64,000 nt of DNA, from NCBI GenBank assembly GCA_017553505.1, contig JAFZLD010000019.1, positions 109,709-173,708 on the forward strand, read 5' to 3'. The notes under the pieces are model-generated. The model did not search any database and was not told the DNA's origin. It saw nothing but the letters and a program-made list of their open reading frames with translations. The translations under genes and the position numbers were made by a program. Origin of the DNA: Lachnospiraceae bacterium (GTDB lineage: Bacteria; Bacillota; Clostridia; Lachnospirales; Lachnospiraceae). The stretch's first letter is position 1. Each line of letters starts with the position of its first letter. Below, in pieces: positions 8,476-12,469 of the stretch.

Positions 8476-10119
8476 TTACTCTTCCGCGTGCTTAAGTGCC
8501 GCATCGATGTGTTCGCAGAAGTTCTCTGCTCCTATCTCATCGTAAAGCCCGCACTTCTTAAGAGCGTTCATAGGCTGTTCGTTAACATGTGAAAGAATAA
8601 GTCTGACCTTGTTCTTACTACAGCTGTCATTGAGGGTCTTAAGAGCGTTGATAGCGGTGGAATCGATTGCATTAACGCTACGCATTCTTAAGATTAGGTT
8701 GTTCATATCTTCATGAACCGTAATGCCGAGAATCTTGTCAGCCGCGCCAAAGAACATGGGACCGGAAATCTCGTATACCATGGTATCCTTGGGTACCTTA
8801 CGCAAGCTGATGGCGTCGGGATCGTTCTCGTCGTCGATAATCTTCCAGCCTTTGACAAGAGTCTCTTCACTCATTCTCTTGATGAAAAGAACGCAGGTGA
8901 TAATCATGCCGACTTCGATAGCAACCACAAGGTCAAATACTACGGTAAGTATAAAGGTTACCAGAAGTACGATTATATCCGAAACAGGCGCTGTCTTACA
9001 TTGCTTAACAAATGTACGCCAGCCCGACATGTTGTAAGCTACCATGAAAAGGATAGCTGCGATTGTGGGCATGGGGATGAGTGCCGCATAAGGCATAAGC
9101 ACTACAAGAATAAGTCCGAGTACAATCGCATGAATCATAGCTGCGATAGGTGTGCGACCGCCGTTCTTAACATTAGCGGCTGTACGAGCGATAGCTCCCG
9201 TAGCGGGAATACCGCCGAAAAGTGCACTGGCGATGTTACCTGCACCCTGAGCAATAAGCTCTGTGTTGGAGTTGTGTCTTGAGTTAACCATTGAGTCAGA
9301 CACTACGCAAGATAAAAGTGATTCAATAGCCGCAAGCACCGCAATGGTAAATGCGTTGGGAATCAAATCCTTAATCATTCCAAATGATACGTTGGGAAGC
9401 GAGAACTTGGGAAGTCCTGCAGAAATCGTATATAAGTCACCGATTGTATTAACGTTCATGTTAAGAAGCTTAACCATGAAAATTCCCACGAATACCGCAA
9501 TAAGCGAAGGGGGAATCTTAGTAAGGAAAGCGGGGCGCTTAATCATGGGCCATACAATAAGAATCGCAAGGCTCACGGCACCTACGATGAGCGCCTCATA
9601 ATTAAAGGTTCCGATGGACTTAACCACCTGAGTGAGCTTCTCCATGGTCTCAACAGCGGGACCGGAAAAAGTAAGACCCAGGAAATCCTTAATCTGACCG
9701 ATAACGATGGTAACCGCAATACCTGCGGTGAAGCCTGTCGTAATGGTATAAGGAATAAACTTAATAAGTGTACCGAGTTTGCAAAGACCCATGATAATAA
9801 GAATGATACCTGCCATAATGGTAGCTACCACAAGGCCTTCCATACCCTTCGTAGCCACAATACCTGCCACAATGGTAGCAAAAGCAGCTGTGGGACCCGA
9901 TACCTGCACTCGGCTTCCGCCCAGGAATGCAATTACAAAGCCTGCCACAATTGCCGTATACAAGCCCTGCTCGGGAGATACGCCCGATGCGATGGCAAGT
10001 GCGATGGACAAAGGAAGCGCGATAATCGCAACAATGATACCTGCGATTACGTCCTTAACAAACTGCTCTTTAGAATAAGTCTTCATTACAGAAAACAATT
10101 TAGGTTTAAACGTACTCAT
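8476..10119 (-). CDS. SulP family anion permease with STAS domain
   Basis: 547 residues. The first 400 form the SulP membrane core of 10-14 helices, with the family signatures ALPLSIALAIASGVSPEQGLYT and, later, GGIPATGAIARTA. The C-terminal 110 residues form a STAS domain (RMRSVNAIDSTAINAL). The family moves sulfate, bicarbonate or other anions by symport or exchange; the substrate cannot be read from the sequence. GGAGGG stands just before the ATG. A sigma-A promoter is seen at 10154-10182 and a terminator at 8431-8457, so it is probably a single-gene unit. Confidence 0.93.
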   Translation of the reverse strand: MSTFKPKLFSVMKTYSKEQFVKDVIAGIIVAIIALPLSIALAIASGVSPEQGLYTAIVAGFVIAFLGGSRVQVSGPTAAFATIVAGIVATKGMEGLVVATIMAGIILIIMGLCKLGTLIKFIPYTITTGFTAGIAVTIVIGQIKDFLGLTFSGPAVETMEKLTQVVKSIGTFNYEALIVGAVSLAILIVWPMIKRPAFLTKIPPSLIAVFVGIFMVKLLNMNVNTIGDLYTISAGLPKFSLPNVSFGMIKDLIPNAFTIAVLAAIESLLSCVVSDSMVNSRHNSNTELIAQGAGNIASALFGGIPATGAIARTAANVKNGGRTPIAAMIHAIVLGLILVVLMPYAALIPMPTIAAILFMVAYNMSGWRTFVKQCKTAPVSDIIVLLVTFILTVVFDLVVAIEVGMIITCVLFIKRMSEETLVKGWKIIDDENDPDAISLRKVPKDTMVYEISGPMFFGAADKILGITVHEDMNNLILRMRSVNAIDSTAINALKTLNDSCSKNKVRLILSHVNEQPMNALKKCGLYDEIGAENFCEHIDAALKHAEE

Positions 10120-10253: not shown

Positions 10254-11069
10254 TCAGCCAAGGGCAATATAATCACCGAGTAATTCTTTTAAATAGCGCT
10301 GATCAAAGACATGTTGTGACGATTCGTATGTGATAATTAATTCTTTCCCGGGTCTTAGACCGTTTTTAAGATACAAATCCACTTTTTTAAGAGCTTTATC
10401 CAGATACTCTTCGTCATCCAAAAGTCCAAAGTGTTCCAGGTATCCTTCTTTTCGCGTATTGATATTAAGAATAGTAAAGTCCGGGTATATTATGCCGTAG
10501 GGTTCAAGATGCAATGGGCACTCGTACCTATATGGTATACAAAATTCGTTTAGACAATCCGCTATTATTTTCTCGCTTTTGGATCTGACCCGCTCTCCTT
10601 TCCTGGTATATATTTCATGGGCTCCCGGGGCAAAGCCCTGTCCAACGTATTCTTTTGCCTCCCATTGTTTTATATATTCATCGTCCGGCAGGAATATCGG
10701 ATTAACCAGCTTTTTCCTAGCATCTTCAAGTGATTCATAAATCTTTTCAGGGACTGTTCTTTCATACGTCTTAGTAAGCTTCTCAATTAATTCAAACTCC
10801 TCTTTAGCACATTTAAGCACATTTTTATCGTAAGCCTTCTGCGCCAGTGCTTCCGCCAAATCCATGCTGTTACGCCCAATATATCTACCATGCGCAGGAA
10901 TTGCGGCGTCGTTCGCATCGTAATGGTAATAATCGATTTTTTTACCCTTAATATTAATCCTAAGCGATCCTTGCGGCGCGTAGCTGAGGCTTTTCTCTCT
11001 GCTGTTTATTATCTTTTGCAAATCGTCCATCCTCTCCTTAAGGATTTTCTGTAAATAATTTCCATTCAA
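10254..11069 (-). CDS. PD-(D/E)XK nuclease-like protein of unknown role
   Basis: 271 residues from a TTG at 11069, chosen because AAGGAG lies 10 bases upstream. The same frame continues to an ATG at 11159, which has no ribosome site and would run into the repeat array. The N-terminal third is charged and helical; the middle has PIFLPDDEYIKQWE and GAHEIYTRKGERVRSKSE. The last 85 residues look like a restriction-endonuclease fold: RSKSE (helix Glu), IYPDFTIL (Asp) and YLEHFGLLDD (Glu-His). Similar stand-alone proteins are, to my recollection, common and multicopy in Lachnospiraceae, but no function is known to me. The 62-bp-phased array lies directly upstream. Nuclease activity is inference from the motif order D...E with an upstream E. 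Confidence 0.7.
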   Translation of the reverse strand: MNGNYLQKILKERMDDLQKIINSREKSLSYAPQGSLRINIKGKKIDYYHYDANDAAIPAHGRYIGRNSMDLAEALAQKAYDKNVLKCAKEEFELIEKLTKTYERTVPEKIYESLEDARKKLVNPIFLPDDEYIKQWEAKEYVGQGFAPGAHEIYTRKGERVRSKSEKIIADCLNEFCIPYRYECPLHLEPYGIIYPDFTILNINTRKEGYLEHFGLLDDEEYLDKALKKVDLYLKNGLRPGKELIITYESSQHVFDQRYLKELLGDYIALG

Positions 11070-11112
11070 TATGTCTTTTCTCCTTTGTATCTCATTTGGT
11101 TTACTCCTTTTA

Positions 11113-11457
11113 CCTATAAATATCGTATTATCGCCGTTTCGTAGGTATGAAAACGTCATAATTTCGATAACTTGCCTACTTATAAGTTCAATTTTTCTAT
11201 TTTGTAGGCCGATTTTTTTCTTCCAGATAACGCTTTTCCTACTAATCTTCTCTTATCAGCTTTTTGTAGGCTGTTTTCTGCAATTTTCGGCCGAAATGGA
11301 CCTACTAATATCGCTATTGGGAAATTTTGTAGGTCTTATTACATTTTTTGATCAAAAATTTACCTACATACTATTTACCCTGGAAAATTTGTAGGCTTTT
11401 TCTTCTTAAAAGGCAAAAAAATGACCTACAAAAACACCTTTACGCCAAAAAAGAAGG
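11113..11457. repeat. Phased array of GTAGG/CCTAC pentamers, 62-63 bp period
   Basis: CCTAC occurs at 11175, 11238, 11301, 11363 and 11425 (CCTAT at 11113); GTAGG at 11141, 11204, 11266, 11329 and 11391 (GAAGG at 11453). Each unit is CCTAC, 23-24 bases, GTAGG, 29-30 bases. The pentamers and a few flanking T/A bases are kept; the filler is AT-rich and differs between units. Two of the 29-30 base fillers hold palindromes (TTTCGGCCGAAA, TTTTTGATCAAAAA). The period is close to six helical turns. The array occupies the gap upstream of the nuclease-like gene. Confidence 0.85.
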
Positions 11458-11520
11458 CAATATAGGTACAAACATACAAATATCGCAGCAATTGGTTTAC
11501 ATAAAGCATGCAGTTTAAGT

Positions 11521-11526
11521 TATAAT
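11521..11526 (+). promoter_or_regulatory. Possible promoter (-10 box) of the structured RNA
   Basis: A perfect TATAAT within GTTATAATTGG. The best -35 candidate, TTTACA at 11496-11501, is 19 bp away, which is longer than usual. Confidence 0.4.
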
Positions 11527-11532
11527 TGGATT

Positions 11533-11659
11533 CAAAAGCGAAGAACCGGTTAGCGGTTCTTGAAATCAAAGCGGAATCGGTAAACGATTCCGAGACCACG
11601 CAAGTCTAGCACAAAAAGAATGAATAATCACGTCTGCGGGCCTCGCAAGAGGCCCGCAG
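11533..11659 (+). ncRNA. Candidate structured RNA with three perfect hairpins
   Basis: Stem 1: AAGAACCG / CGGTTCTT with loop GTTAG (11541-11561). Stem 2: CGGAATCG / CGATTCCG with loop GTAAA (11572-11592). Stem 3: CTGCGGGCCTC / GAGGCCCGCAG with loop GCAA, a GNRA tetraloop on the plus strand (11634-11659). Stems 1 and 2 share an 8-5-8 form. A TATAAT box lies seven bases before the proposed start. No U-run follows stem 3, so it may instead belong to the 3' end of the minus-strand glycosylase transcript. I do not recognise a known RNA family. Confidence 0.4.
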
Positions 11660-11662
11660 CAG

Positions 11663-12469
11663 TCAATGAGTCAATTCATAATAAAACAGATATTGCTGTA
11701 TTACTCCGGCCACGCCTTTAAAGTATTCATGATTAAATCCGTTCGGATAATACTTGGCAAGTAACTGCTTAACATGAGTATCTATAGGAAACGCTCCGAT
11801 ATGGTGAAGTCCGAAAAGGCAGATACAATCGGCAACCTTGGGGCCGATGCCCTTGCGCTTTAGCAGTTCTGCACGGGCTTCTTCGTAGTTCATGGCTTTA
11901 AGCAACTCAAGCCATTCCGGATTCTTCTCAGCGAATTCATACATTTCCTTAAGGTAAGGTACTCGATAACCAAGGCCAAGATTGACCTTTTCAAACATCT
12001 CGGGATTAATATCTCCGGGCCCGGGAAAAGAAAACTCCTCTCCTGCCCCCGCGGCCTTAATACCTCCCTCGCGACACAACGCTTCCACGCTGTTCTTAAT
12101 CCTCGAAATATTATTATTCTGGGATATTAAGAAGCTAATGATAATCTCCCACAAATCTTGCTTAAGGATTCGAATTCCGCGGCCTTCCTCAAAAGCCTCA
12201 AGAAGATGCGCATCGCCGGACTTTCTGATAAGAGCTTCGATACGCTCATAGTCCGTATCCAGGTCAAAATAATGCGACCACACATCCTTCCACTCTTCCT
12301 CCGAACAATCAAGTTCAAAGAAACCGGGCTCACCGGCACACGCGCGCATATTAAGAACGCGCCCAAATGCTGTCACACGGACGCATCCGGACGCTGTTTC
12401 CTTCCACCGGAAGCACTGACCGCTTCCGGCAATCTCCTGTACATCAAAATGATCGATATATTTCTTCAC
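11663..12469 (-). CDS. 8-oxoguanine DNA glycosylase / AP lyase (OGG1-type)
   Basis: 268 residues. The N-terminal OGG domain includes GQCFRW (about residues 17-22). The helix-hairpin-helix-GPD domain follows: SFLISQNNNISRIKNSV near residue 112 and RKGIGPKVADCI near 205, where the Lys after GP is the Schiff-base residue, then FPIDTHV with the catalytic Asp. It removes 8-oxoguanine opposite cytosine and nicks the strand. The upstream AAA gene ends 8 bases before its ATG, so the two are co-transcribed. The GC-rich 11-bp hairpin four bases after the stop lacks a clear T-run. Confidence 0.93.
   Translation of the reverse strand: MKKYIDHFDVQEIAGSGQCFRWKETASGCVRVTAFGRVLNMRACAGEPGFFELDCSEEEWKDVWSHYFDLDTDYERIEALIRKSGDAHLLEAFEEGRGIRILKQDLWEIIISFLISQNNNISRIKNSVEALCREGGIKAAGAGEEFSFPGPGDINPEMFEKVNLGLGYRVPYLKEMYEFAEKNPEWLELLKAMNYEEARAELLKRKGIGPKVADCICLFGLHHIGAFPIDTHVKQLLAKYYPNGFNHEYFKGVAGVIQQYLFYYELTH

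Follow-up and report, generated by a model that had tools for sequence, protein, structure and literature searches.

Between two genes of a Lachnospiraceae genome lies a run of five-base words, repeated in alternating orientation at a nearly constant interval, and beside it a gene for a nuclease-like protein. We asked what this array is, and whether it belongs to its neighbor. The array occupies positions 11113..11457 of the window (the whole stretch of 64,000 nucleotides that was analyzed) and was delimited, without assignment to a strand, from word positions, shuffles and a whole-genome pattern search. It consists of six dyads built from ten exact GTAGG/CCTAC words and two one-base variants: CCTAT (11113) with GTAGG (11141), CCTAC (11175) with GTAGG (11204), CCTAC (11238) with GTAGG (11266), CCTAC (11301) with GTAGG (11329), CCTAC (11363) with GTAGG (11391), and CCTAC (11425) with the variant GAAGG (11453). 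Successive CCT-words are spaced by 62, 63, 63, 62 and 62 bp and successive G-words by 63, 62, 63, 62 and 62 bp, with steps of 28-29 bp inside a dyad and 34-35 bp from dyad to dyad, for a period of 62.5 bp, close to six helical turns. The first-pass annotation, made from the sequence alone, had reported ten exact pentamers and two one-base variants at 62- and 63-bp spacings, and its count is correct to the base.

The periodicity also stands far above that of shuffled intergenic DNA, which that annotation had named as the relevant comparison. The window contains 88 GTAGG/CCTAC pentamers, 10 of them in the array; the longest chain with correct orientation and spacing had 10 members, against 2 at most in 20,000 mononucleotide shuffles of positions 11070-11662. 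The pattern GTAGG-N28..31-CCTAC-N22..25-GTAGG was matched 23 times genome-wide, at three loci, whereas the reversed control gave 0 matches. Across these three arrays the fillers between words resemble each other about as much as shuffled sequence, with a mean best identity of 0.405 (0.397 shuffled) for the short class and 0.373 (0.369 shuffled) for the long class, and with 3 of 91 short and 4 of 78 long pairs at the shuffled 99th percentile. Most of the 27 fillers of this genome fold no better than shuffled sequence. Searches of the window for Rfam families at gathering score and for tRNAs found nothing. A perfect 11-bp inverted repeat that resembles a terminator (11634..11659, no strand assigned) lies in the interval between the array and the DNA glycosylase gene on its far side.

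The array-associated gene (10254..11069, minus strand) begins with TTG at 11069 and encodes 271 amino acids; an alternative in-frame ATG at 11159 would extend the product to 301 amino acids. We infer that the product is a PD-(D/E)XK-type protein and a putative nuclease, with a variable N-terminal part (about residues 1-150) and a C-terminal nuclease domain (about residues 154-264). All 125 homologues keep K164, E166, D197 and H213, and all but one (124 of 125) keep E212; a 28-sequence alignment of the family has 15 invariant columns, every one in the C-terminal domain. No fitting family was present in Pfam, NCBIfam or PDB, and the only two matches among solved structures (E 0.16 and 0.21) were to unrelated enzymes. 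The PADLOC models PDC-S68 and PDC-S69 and one PD-(D/E)XK model match the C-terminal domain only, the last of these over residues 152-262. Like PDC-S68, the protein carries a nuclease domain (154-264) that matches the C-terminal end of the PDC-S68 models (best E 2e-23); those models are about 1200 amino acids long, whereas in the present family the domain is preceded by a short, variable N-terminal part, in a gene that sits beside an array. The group of closest systems also covers PDC-S69 and helicase-linked PD-(D/E)XK domains.

When 14 genomes were searched with the window protein, nine copies turned up in the window genome (the window's own included), five or six in each of G006, G007 and G015, one or two in each of G005, G011, G012, G409 and G413, and no homologue in G003, G004, G069, G113 and G291. 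A profile of the family matched 63 of 200 Lachnospiraceae genomes (one per genus), about 56 of them at full length once seven partial or domain-only matches are subtracted. In a phylum-wide set of 398 genomes six matched, five of these in Lachnospiraceae and the sixth in the nuclease domain only; full-length members were found almost only in Lachnospiraceae. On plasmids there were four partial matches, in every case to the nuclease domain, and three loci on viral contigs likewise match the nuclease domain alone. Viral contigs also gave four matches to the long GTAGG pattern, at which we saw no longer regular chain by eye and found no nuclease profile match. An unannotated 4.2-kb phage record (MT839528.1) encodes a full-length distant relative at 374-1159, with 29.8% identity. 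Because the homologues at L105, L115, L140 and L170 contain in-frame stops, some of these genes evidently decay.

To a large extent, genes of the family come with an array. An array of alternating inverted words adjoins the gene at 98 of 125 homologue loci, mostly upstream, compared with 0 of 62 control flanks (two housekeeping genes, all from the window genome's genus), and so the link between array and adjacent nuclease made by the first-pass annotation extends to the family. The 125 loci include 65 further loci fetched after the genome survey; L103, L107, L110, L111, L117 and L146 were excluded as duplicates and L104 because its upstream DNA was missing, and L241-L254, one stop-bearing homologue in G034 and the partial or domain-only matches fall outside the array analysis. 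By a single criterion the array was upstream at 85 of 119 assessable loci and downstream at 30 of 124. The 27 loci called without an array include six with less than 200 bp of upstream sequence and a few with weak arrays. Seventeen loci were positive on both sides, which is an upper estimate because they include the window locus, whose downstream flank cleared the criterion (10 vs 5) probably as a false positive in coding DNA. No neighboring gene family occurs at more than 7 of the 125 loci, and thus there is no recurrent partner gene.

The window locus itself can be compared with that of two sister species. In the window, the array and nuclease gene lie between the DNA glycosylase gene (OGG_N; 11663..12469, minus strand) and a SulP sulfate permease gene (8476..10119, minus strand). 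In G015 and G007, whose glycosylases are 87% and 85% identical to the window's, the sulfate permease gene comes immediately after the glycosylase gene, and neither array nor nuclease gene lies between them; at this locus, therefore, array and gene are present or absent together. The junctions, as judged against the two sister species, are not precise. A 98% relative (a 1.3-Mb genome) gave no match, and its contig begins inside the nuclease gene.

Arrays also occur by themselves. The window genome has two solo GTAGG arrays, both intergenic, on contig 5 near 173 kb and on contig 11 near 59 kb, and the 11-kb stretches around them contain no nuclease profile match. From their translations we take the neighbors to be amylase-like and esterase genes on contig 5 and nucleosidase and amidohydrolase genes on contig 11. 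In the sister species, there was no array in the 1.1 kb after the nucleosidase gene of the contig 11 locus. Among 397 genomes of the family, the GTAGG pattern was found in 10: the window genome, G409 (63 matches), G291 (three), and seven with single matches, which is the level of the reversed control. G409, which belongs to another genus, has nine solo array loci, two of them (contigs 42 and 83) at contig ends of a genome that is 75% complete. Its arrays are mostly 63-bp tandem units with fillers conserved within arrays, and one of its nuclease homologues sits between two GTAGG arrays (L065). The module thus takes three forms: gene with array, gene between two arrays, and solo array. G291, a 77%-complete genome in which no nuclease homologue was found, has comparable elements at L032, L037 and L039, made up of several GTAGG-type dyads with fillers that are related. 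In two genera GTAGG arrays follow a gene that, from its translation, is presumably rplL (L037 in G291 and L061 in G409). G007 has a GTAGG-like solo array with a 64-bp unit (L010:1180-1580; words AAGGTAGGAA and AAGGTGGGAA), and AAGGTGGGAA differs by a single base from AAGGTGTGAA, the word assembled from overlapping 6-mers for the G007 nuclease at L105.

From these comparisons we describe a Lachnospiraceae family of small, predicted PD-(D/E)XK-type proteins whose genes lie mostly beside arrays of alternating words, and we read the window array as the probable cognate site array of the neighboring nuclease, at a probability of roughly 0.6. A protein dimer, probably formed through the variable N-terminal part, would recognize one dyad, that is, a pair of inverted words at a distance of about 29 bp. 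The repeats would keep successive dimers on one face of the DNA and so permit cooperative assembly, and the conserved nuclease domain would act from the assembled platform.

We consider it unlikely that the array is merely an unusually long autoregulatory operator, at which the gene's own product or a separate regulator binds cooperatively and restrains a dangerous enzyme. In-phase dyads are typical of cooperative repressors, and the upstream position of most arrays, with a median distance of 70 bp between last word and start codon in 70 upstream arrays, is what such an operator predicts. It covers this upstream majority, but the arrays are not always in the promoter region: one subfamily (L130, L131, L133 and L136) has downstream-only arrays, some genes (e.g. 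L116 and L120) are flanked on both sides, and the solo arrays of the window genome (G000) and G409 stand beside other genes.

The first-pass annotation had expected GTAGG/CCTAC to be enriched upstream of homologues. Taken literally this expectation fails, because groups of homologues have their own words, and what is conserved instead is the layout; its interpretation as a whole is borne out in part, in the tie to the nuclease family and in the helical phase described below, and not in the GTAGG enrichment as worded. Other words of the family are ACACCT, TGACTA, TGACCC, TTATGC, GGCGAA, ACATGC, TATCGC, TATCCC, ATAGGA and others; ACACCT and TGACTA belong to two paralogues of the window protein. 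In 73 array sides with at least three dyads there were 59 distinct 6-mers, a count that takes shifted forms of one word separately, and 34 clusters sharing a 5-mer, which do not.

Among loci in which at least two dyads were found, a word is shared by 7 of 9 protein pairs at 75% identity or more, 4 of 16 at 60-75%, 1 of 54 at 50-60%, 3 of 124 at 40-50%, and 22 of 3200 below 40%. By this measure the word is common to close relatives and usually different in distant ones, yet GTAGG is present in both G409 and the window genome, whose nucleases are 38% identical. The fast replacement of words at 40-60% identity is a difficulty for a simple view of protein and site. Within G409 some dyads have changed from CCTAC/GTAGG to CCGCC/GGCGG, with both arms switching together, as expected if the dyad is the unit. 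The switch is seen at the ends of three arrays (L043, L061 and L065); in L061 further units with the new word continue the array, and one inner unit has only one arm changed.

The number of helical turns per period is more durable. Two genes fall in the same turn class in 20 of 23 pairs at 60% identity or more, 49 of 72 at 50-60%, 101 of 177 at 40-50%, and about a quarter of pairs below 40% (91 loci), and 0 of 1000 permutations reached the value observed at 40-60%. Turn class follows protein similarity, and on these sequences turn number outlasts the word as proteins diverge. As one example, we point to seven loci downstream of a comEC-like gene. Four of them have nucleases that are 45-59% identical, a period of 73, and four different words; at the remaining three the nucleases are 25-34% identical to the first four, with one period of 51 bp and two loci without a dyad array.

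Modal periods, taken once per gene with at least three dyads, fall at 52-54, 62-64, 70-75, 85-86 and 94-95 bp. Modulo 10.5 bp the periods of 62 genes give R=0.79 at a phase of 3 degrees, and the idea of the first-pass annotation that the sites face one side of the helix thus holds across the family, with periods near whole turns of about 10.5 bp. The peak in modulus is broad and not sharply fixed (R 0.79 at 10.25 and 0.78 at 10.75). For all 105 array sides R=0.68 with a nominal p of about 1e-21, a value that overstates independence because sides are not independent and many periods come from near-identical tandem units. Steps that depart from the period inside one array are more telling than pooled array periods; with multiples removed there are 28 of these, and they give R=0.54 at 10.5 (nominal p 3e-4) and fit 10.0 slightly better (R=0.58, p 7e-5). 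The TGACCC array (L119), for instance, has dyads of 27-28 bp joined by linkers of 36, 46 and 67 bp; the linkers of TGACTA arrays are 36 and 46 bp and those of ACATGC arrays 34, 44 and 77 bp, so that linkers within an array shift by about 10 bp. The 10.5-bp phase does not hold for six genes whose periods are 70-71 bp; four of these belong to one subfamily. Overall, the dyad-to-dyad spacing is in most cases near an integral number of B-DNA turns.

A less supported extension of the cognate-site reading is that nuclease and array form a self-spreading genetic unit, with a logic comparable to that of RAYT transposases and REPINs. Tentatively, and with slightly more doubt than belief, we propose that each of these nucleases maintains and propagates a helically phased dyad array of its own, and that enzyme and word change together fast, such that relatives at 40-60% identity differ in word even at the same genomic position and turn number tends to stay. 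If this is true, the module would be a double-stranded DNA counterpart of RAYT/REPIN with a PD-(D/E)XK enzyme and would offer a natural series of matched protein-DNA specificities. Our results suggest that the enzyme and its own DNA array are an undescribed partnership. The first-pass annotation knew of no element of this form, and we likewise found no description of one in the open-access literature, most subscription papers lying outside the search. Should the reading be right, it would add an unreported kind of genetic element to a major gut and rumen family, with helix phase written into its spacing, and would account for a class of intergenic repeats in Lachnospiraceae. The dozens of enzyme-word pairs would then be a natural data set on the joint change of DNA-binding proteins and their sites, and could also provide tools for sequence-specific binding.

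It is improbable that the array acts as transcribed RNA, with the words as stems of a hairpin string, possibly together with the protein. The first-pass annotation had listed weak RNA hairpins as one option. In G409 this finds some favor, in that the dyad arms change together while the inward pair at the boundary mismatches, and on either strand the folding of seven entire arrays is better than that of shuffled sequence (z -2.3 to -8.5). Inverted words alone, however, raise folding scores, and there is no consistent match between the strand that folds better and the one that is transcribed. The window genome lacks extended stems, and there the sequences flanking the words show no more pairing than permuted partners do (less, for the short fillers). 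Quantization by about 10.5 bp, moreover, is a property of B-form DNA.

We considered RAYT transposases and REP elements first, because the GTAG and the alternating orientation fit. The likenesses are several: a DNA-processing gene that stands as an orphan and has short inverted words of its own kind on its flanks, further copies of these words scattered elsewhere, and classes of word that match lineages of the enzyme (PMC2817692, PMC3116915), as well as the regular spacing and alternating orientation of BIMEs (PMC2817692). In favor of a REP/BIME-type element moved by a Y1 (HUH) transposase, with GTAG-footed palindromes read as single-stranded hairpins, are features reported for REPs and BIMEs (PMC3733652, PMC2817692): the GTAG foot, and intergenic words that are regularly spaced and alternate in orientation. 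The arrays also have dispersed copies. We nevertheless regard such an element as very improbable. The enzyme is predicted to be of PD-(D/E)XK type and not a Y1/HUH tyrosine transposase, the family's words need neither GTAG (missing from most of the others) nor a hairpin, and the spacing is mostly tied to whole turns of double-stranded DNA. No 20-40 bp palindrome beside an unpaired GTAG foot was found; fillers mostly form no hairpins, and pairing beyond the pentamers is at the permuted level in the window genome. Nor was there a repeat-flanked Y1_Tnp gene: PF01797 was matched 13 times, in five of nine genomes, and the five matches whose flanks were scanned (the other eight are all in G015) had no phased GTAGG words, while G007 has an array and no Y1_Tnp match. 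On these last two grounds we rejected a RAYT/REP assignment. The array-nuclease module fits no known family, failing on both features that define RAYT/REPIN, the Y1 enzyme and the GTAG-footed hairpin. At G291 L052 there is a Y1 transposase gene (a 265-aa open frame) with a flanking inverted repeat containing GGGACGGTTCTTTTGCCA, which is unrelated to GTAGG.

Two further kinds of repeat bear a likeness to the arrays. The window array, like CRISPR, has conserved words and unrelated fillers of nearly fixed length, but words of the family are 5-9 bp long and occur in both orientations, where CRISPR has cas genes and direct repeats of about 24-48 bp separated by spacers. Four window proteins were scanned and gave no cas-like match, and a CRISPR-like spacer role was rejected on the conservation of fillers within G409 arrays; the first-pass annotation likewise judged the array not to be CRISPR. 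Intergenic VNTR/MIRU-type repeats are tandem units of 50-100 bp between genes, a likeness to the arrays, which differ in being tied to one gene family, dyad-built and helically phased. That the arrays are neutral intergenic tandem repeats lying near these genes by chance is scarcely credible: many are indeed near-identical tandem units, but the control flanks (of one genus) are empty, the window array keeps its words while its fillers are unrelated, helical steps occur inside arrays, and words correspond to proteins.

Finally, nuclease genes adjoin the same housekeeping genes across genera, with differing words. We take the recurrent neighbors to be comEC (L205, L208, L209 and L210), rplM-rpsI (L160, L171 and L174) and lysS (L115, L151, L159 and L179). 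The period is constant beside the comEC and rplM-rpsI sets, and not beside lysS.
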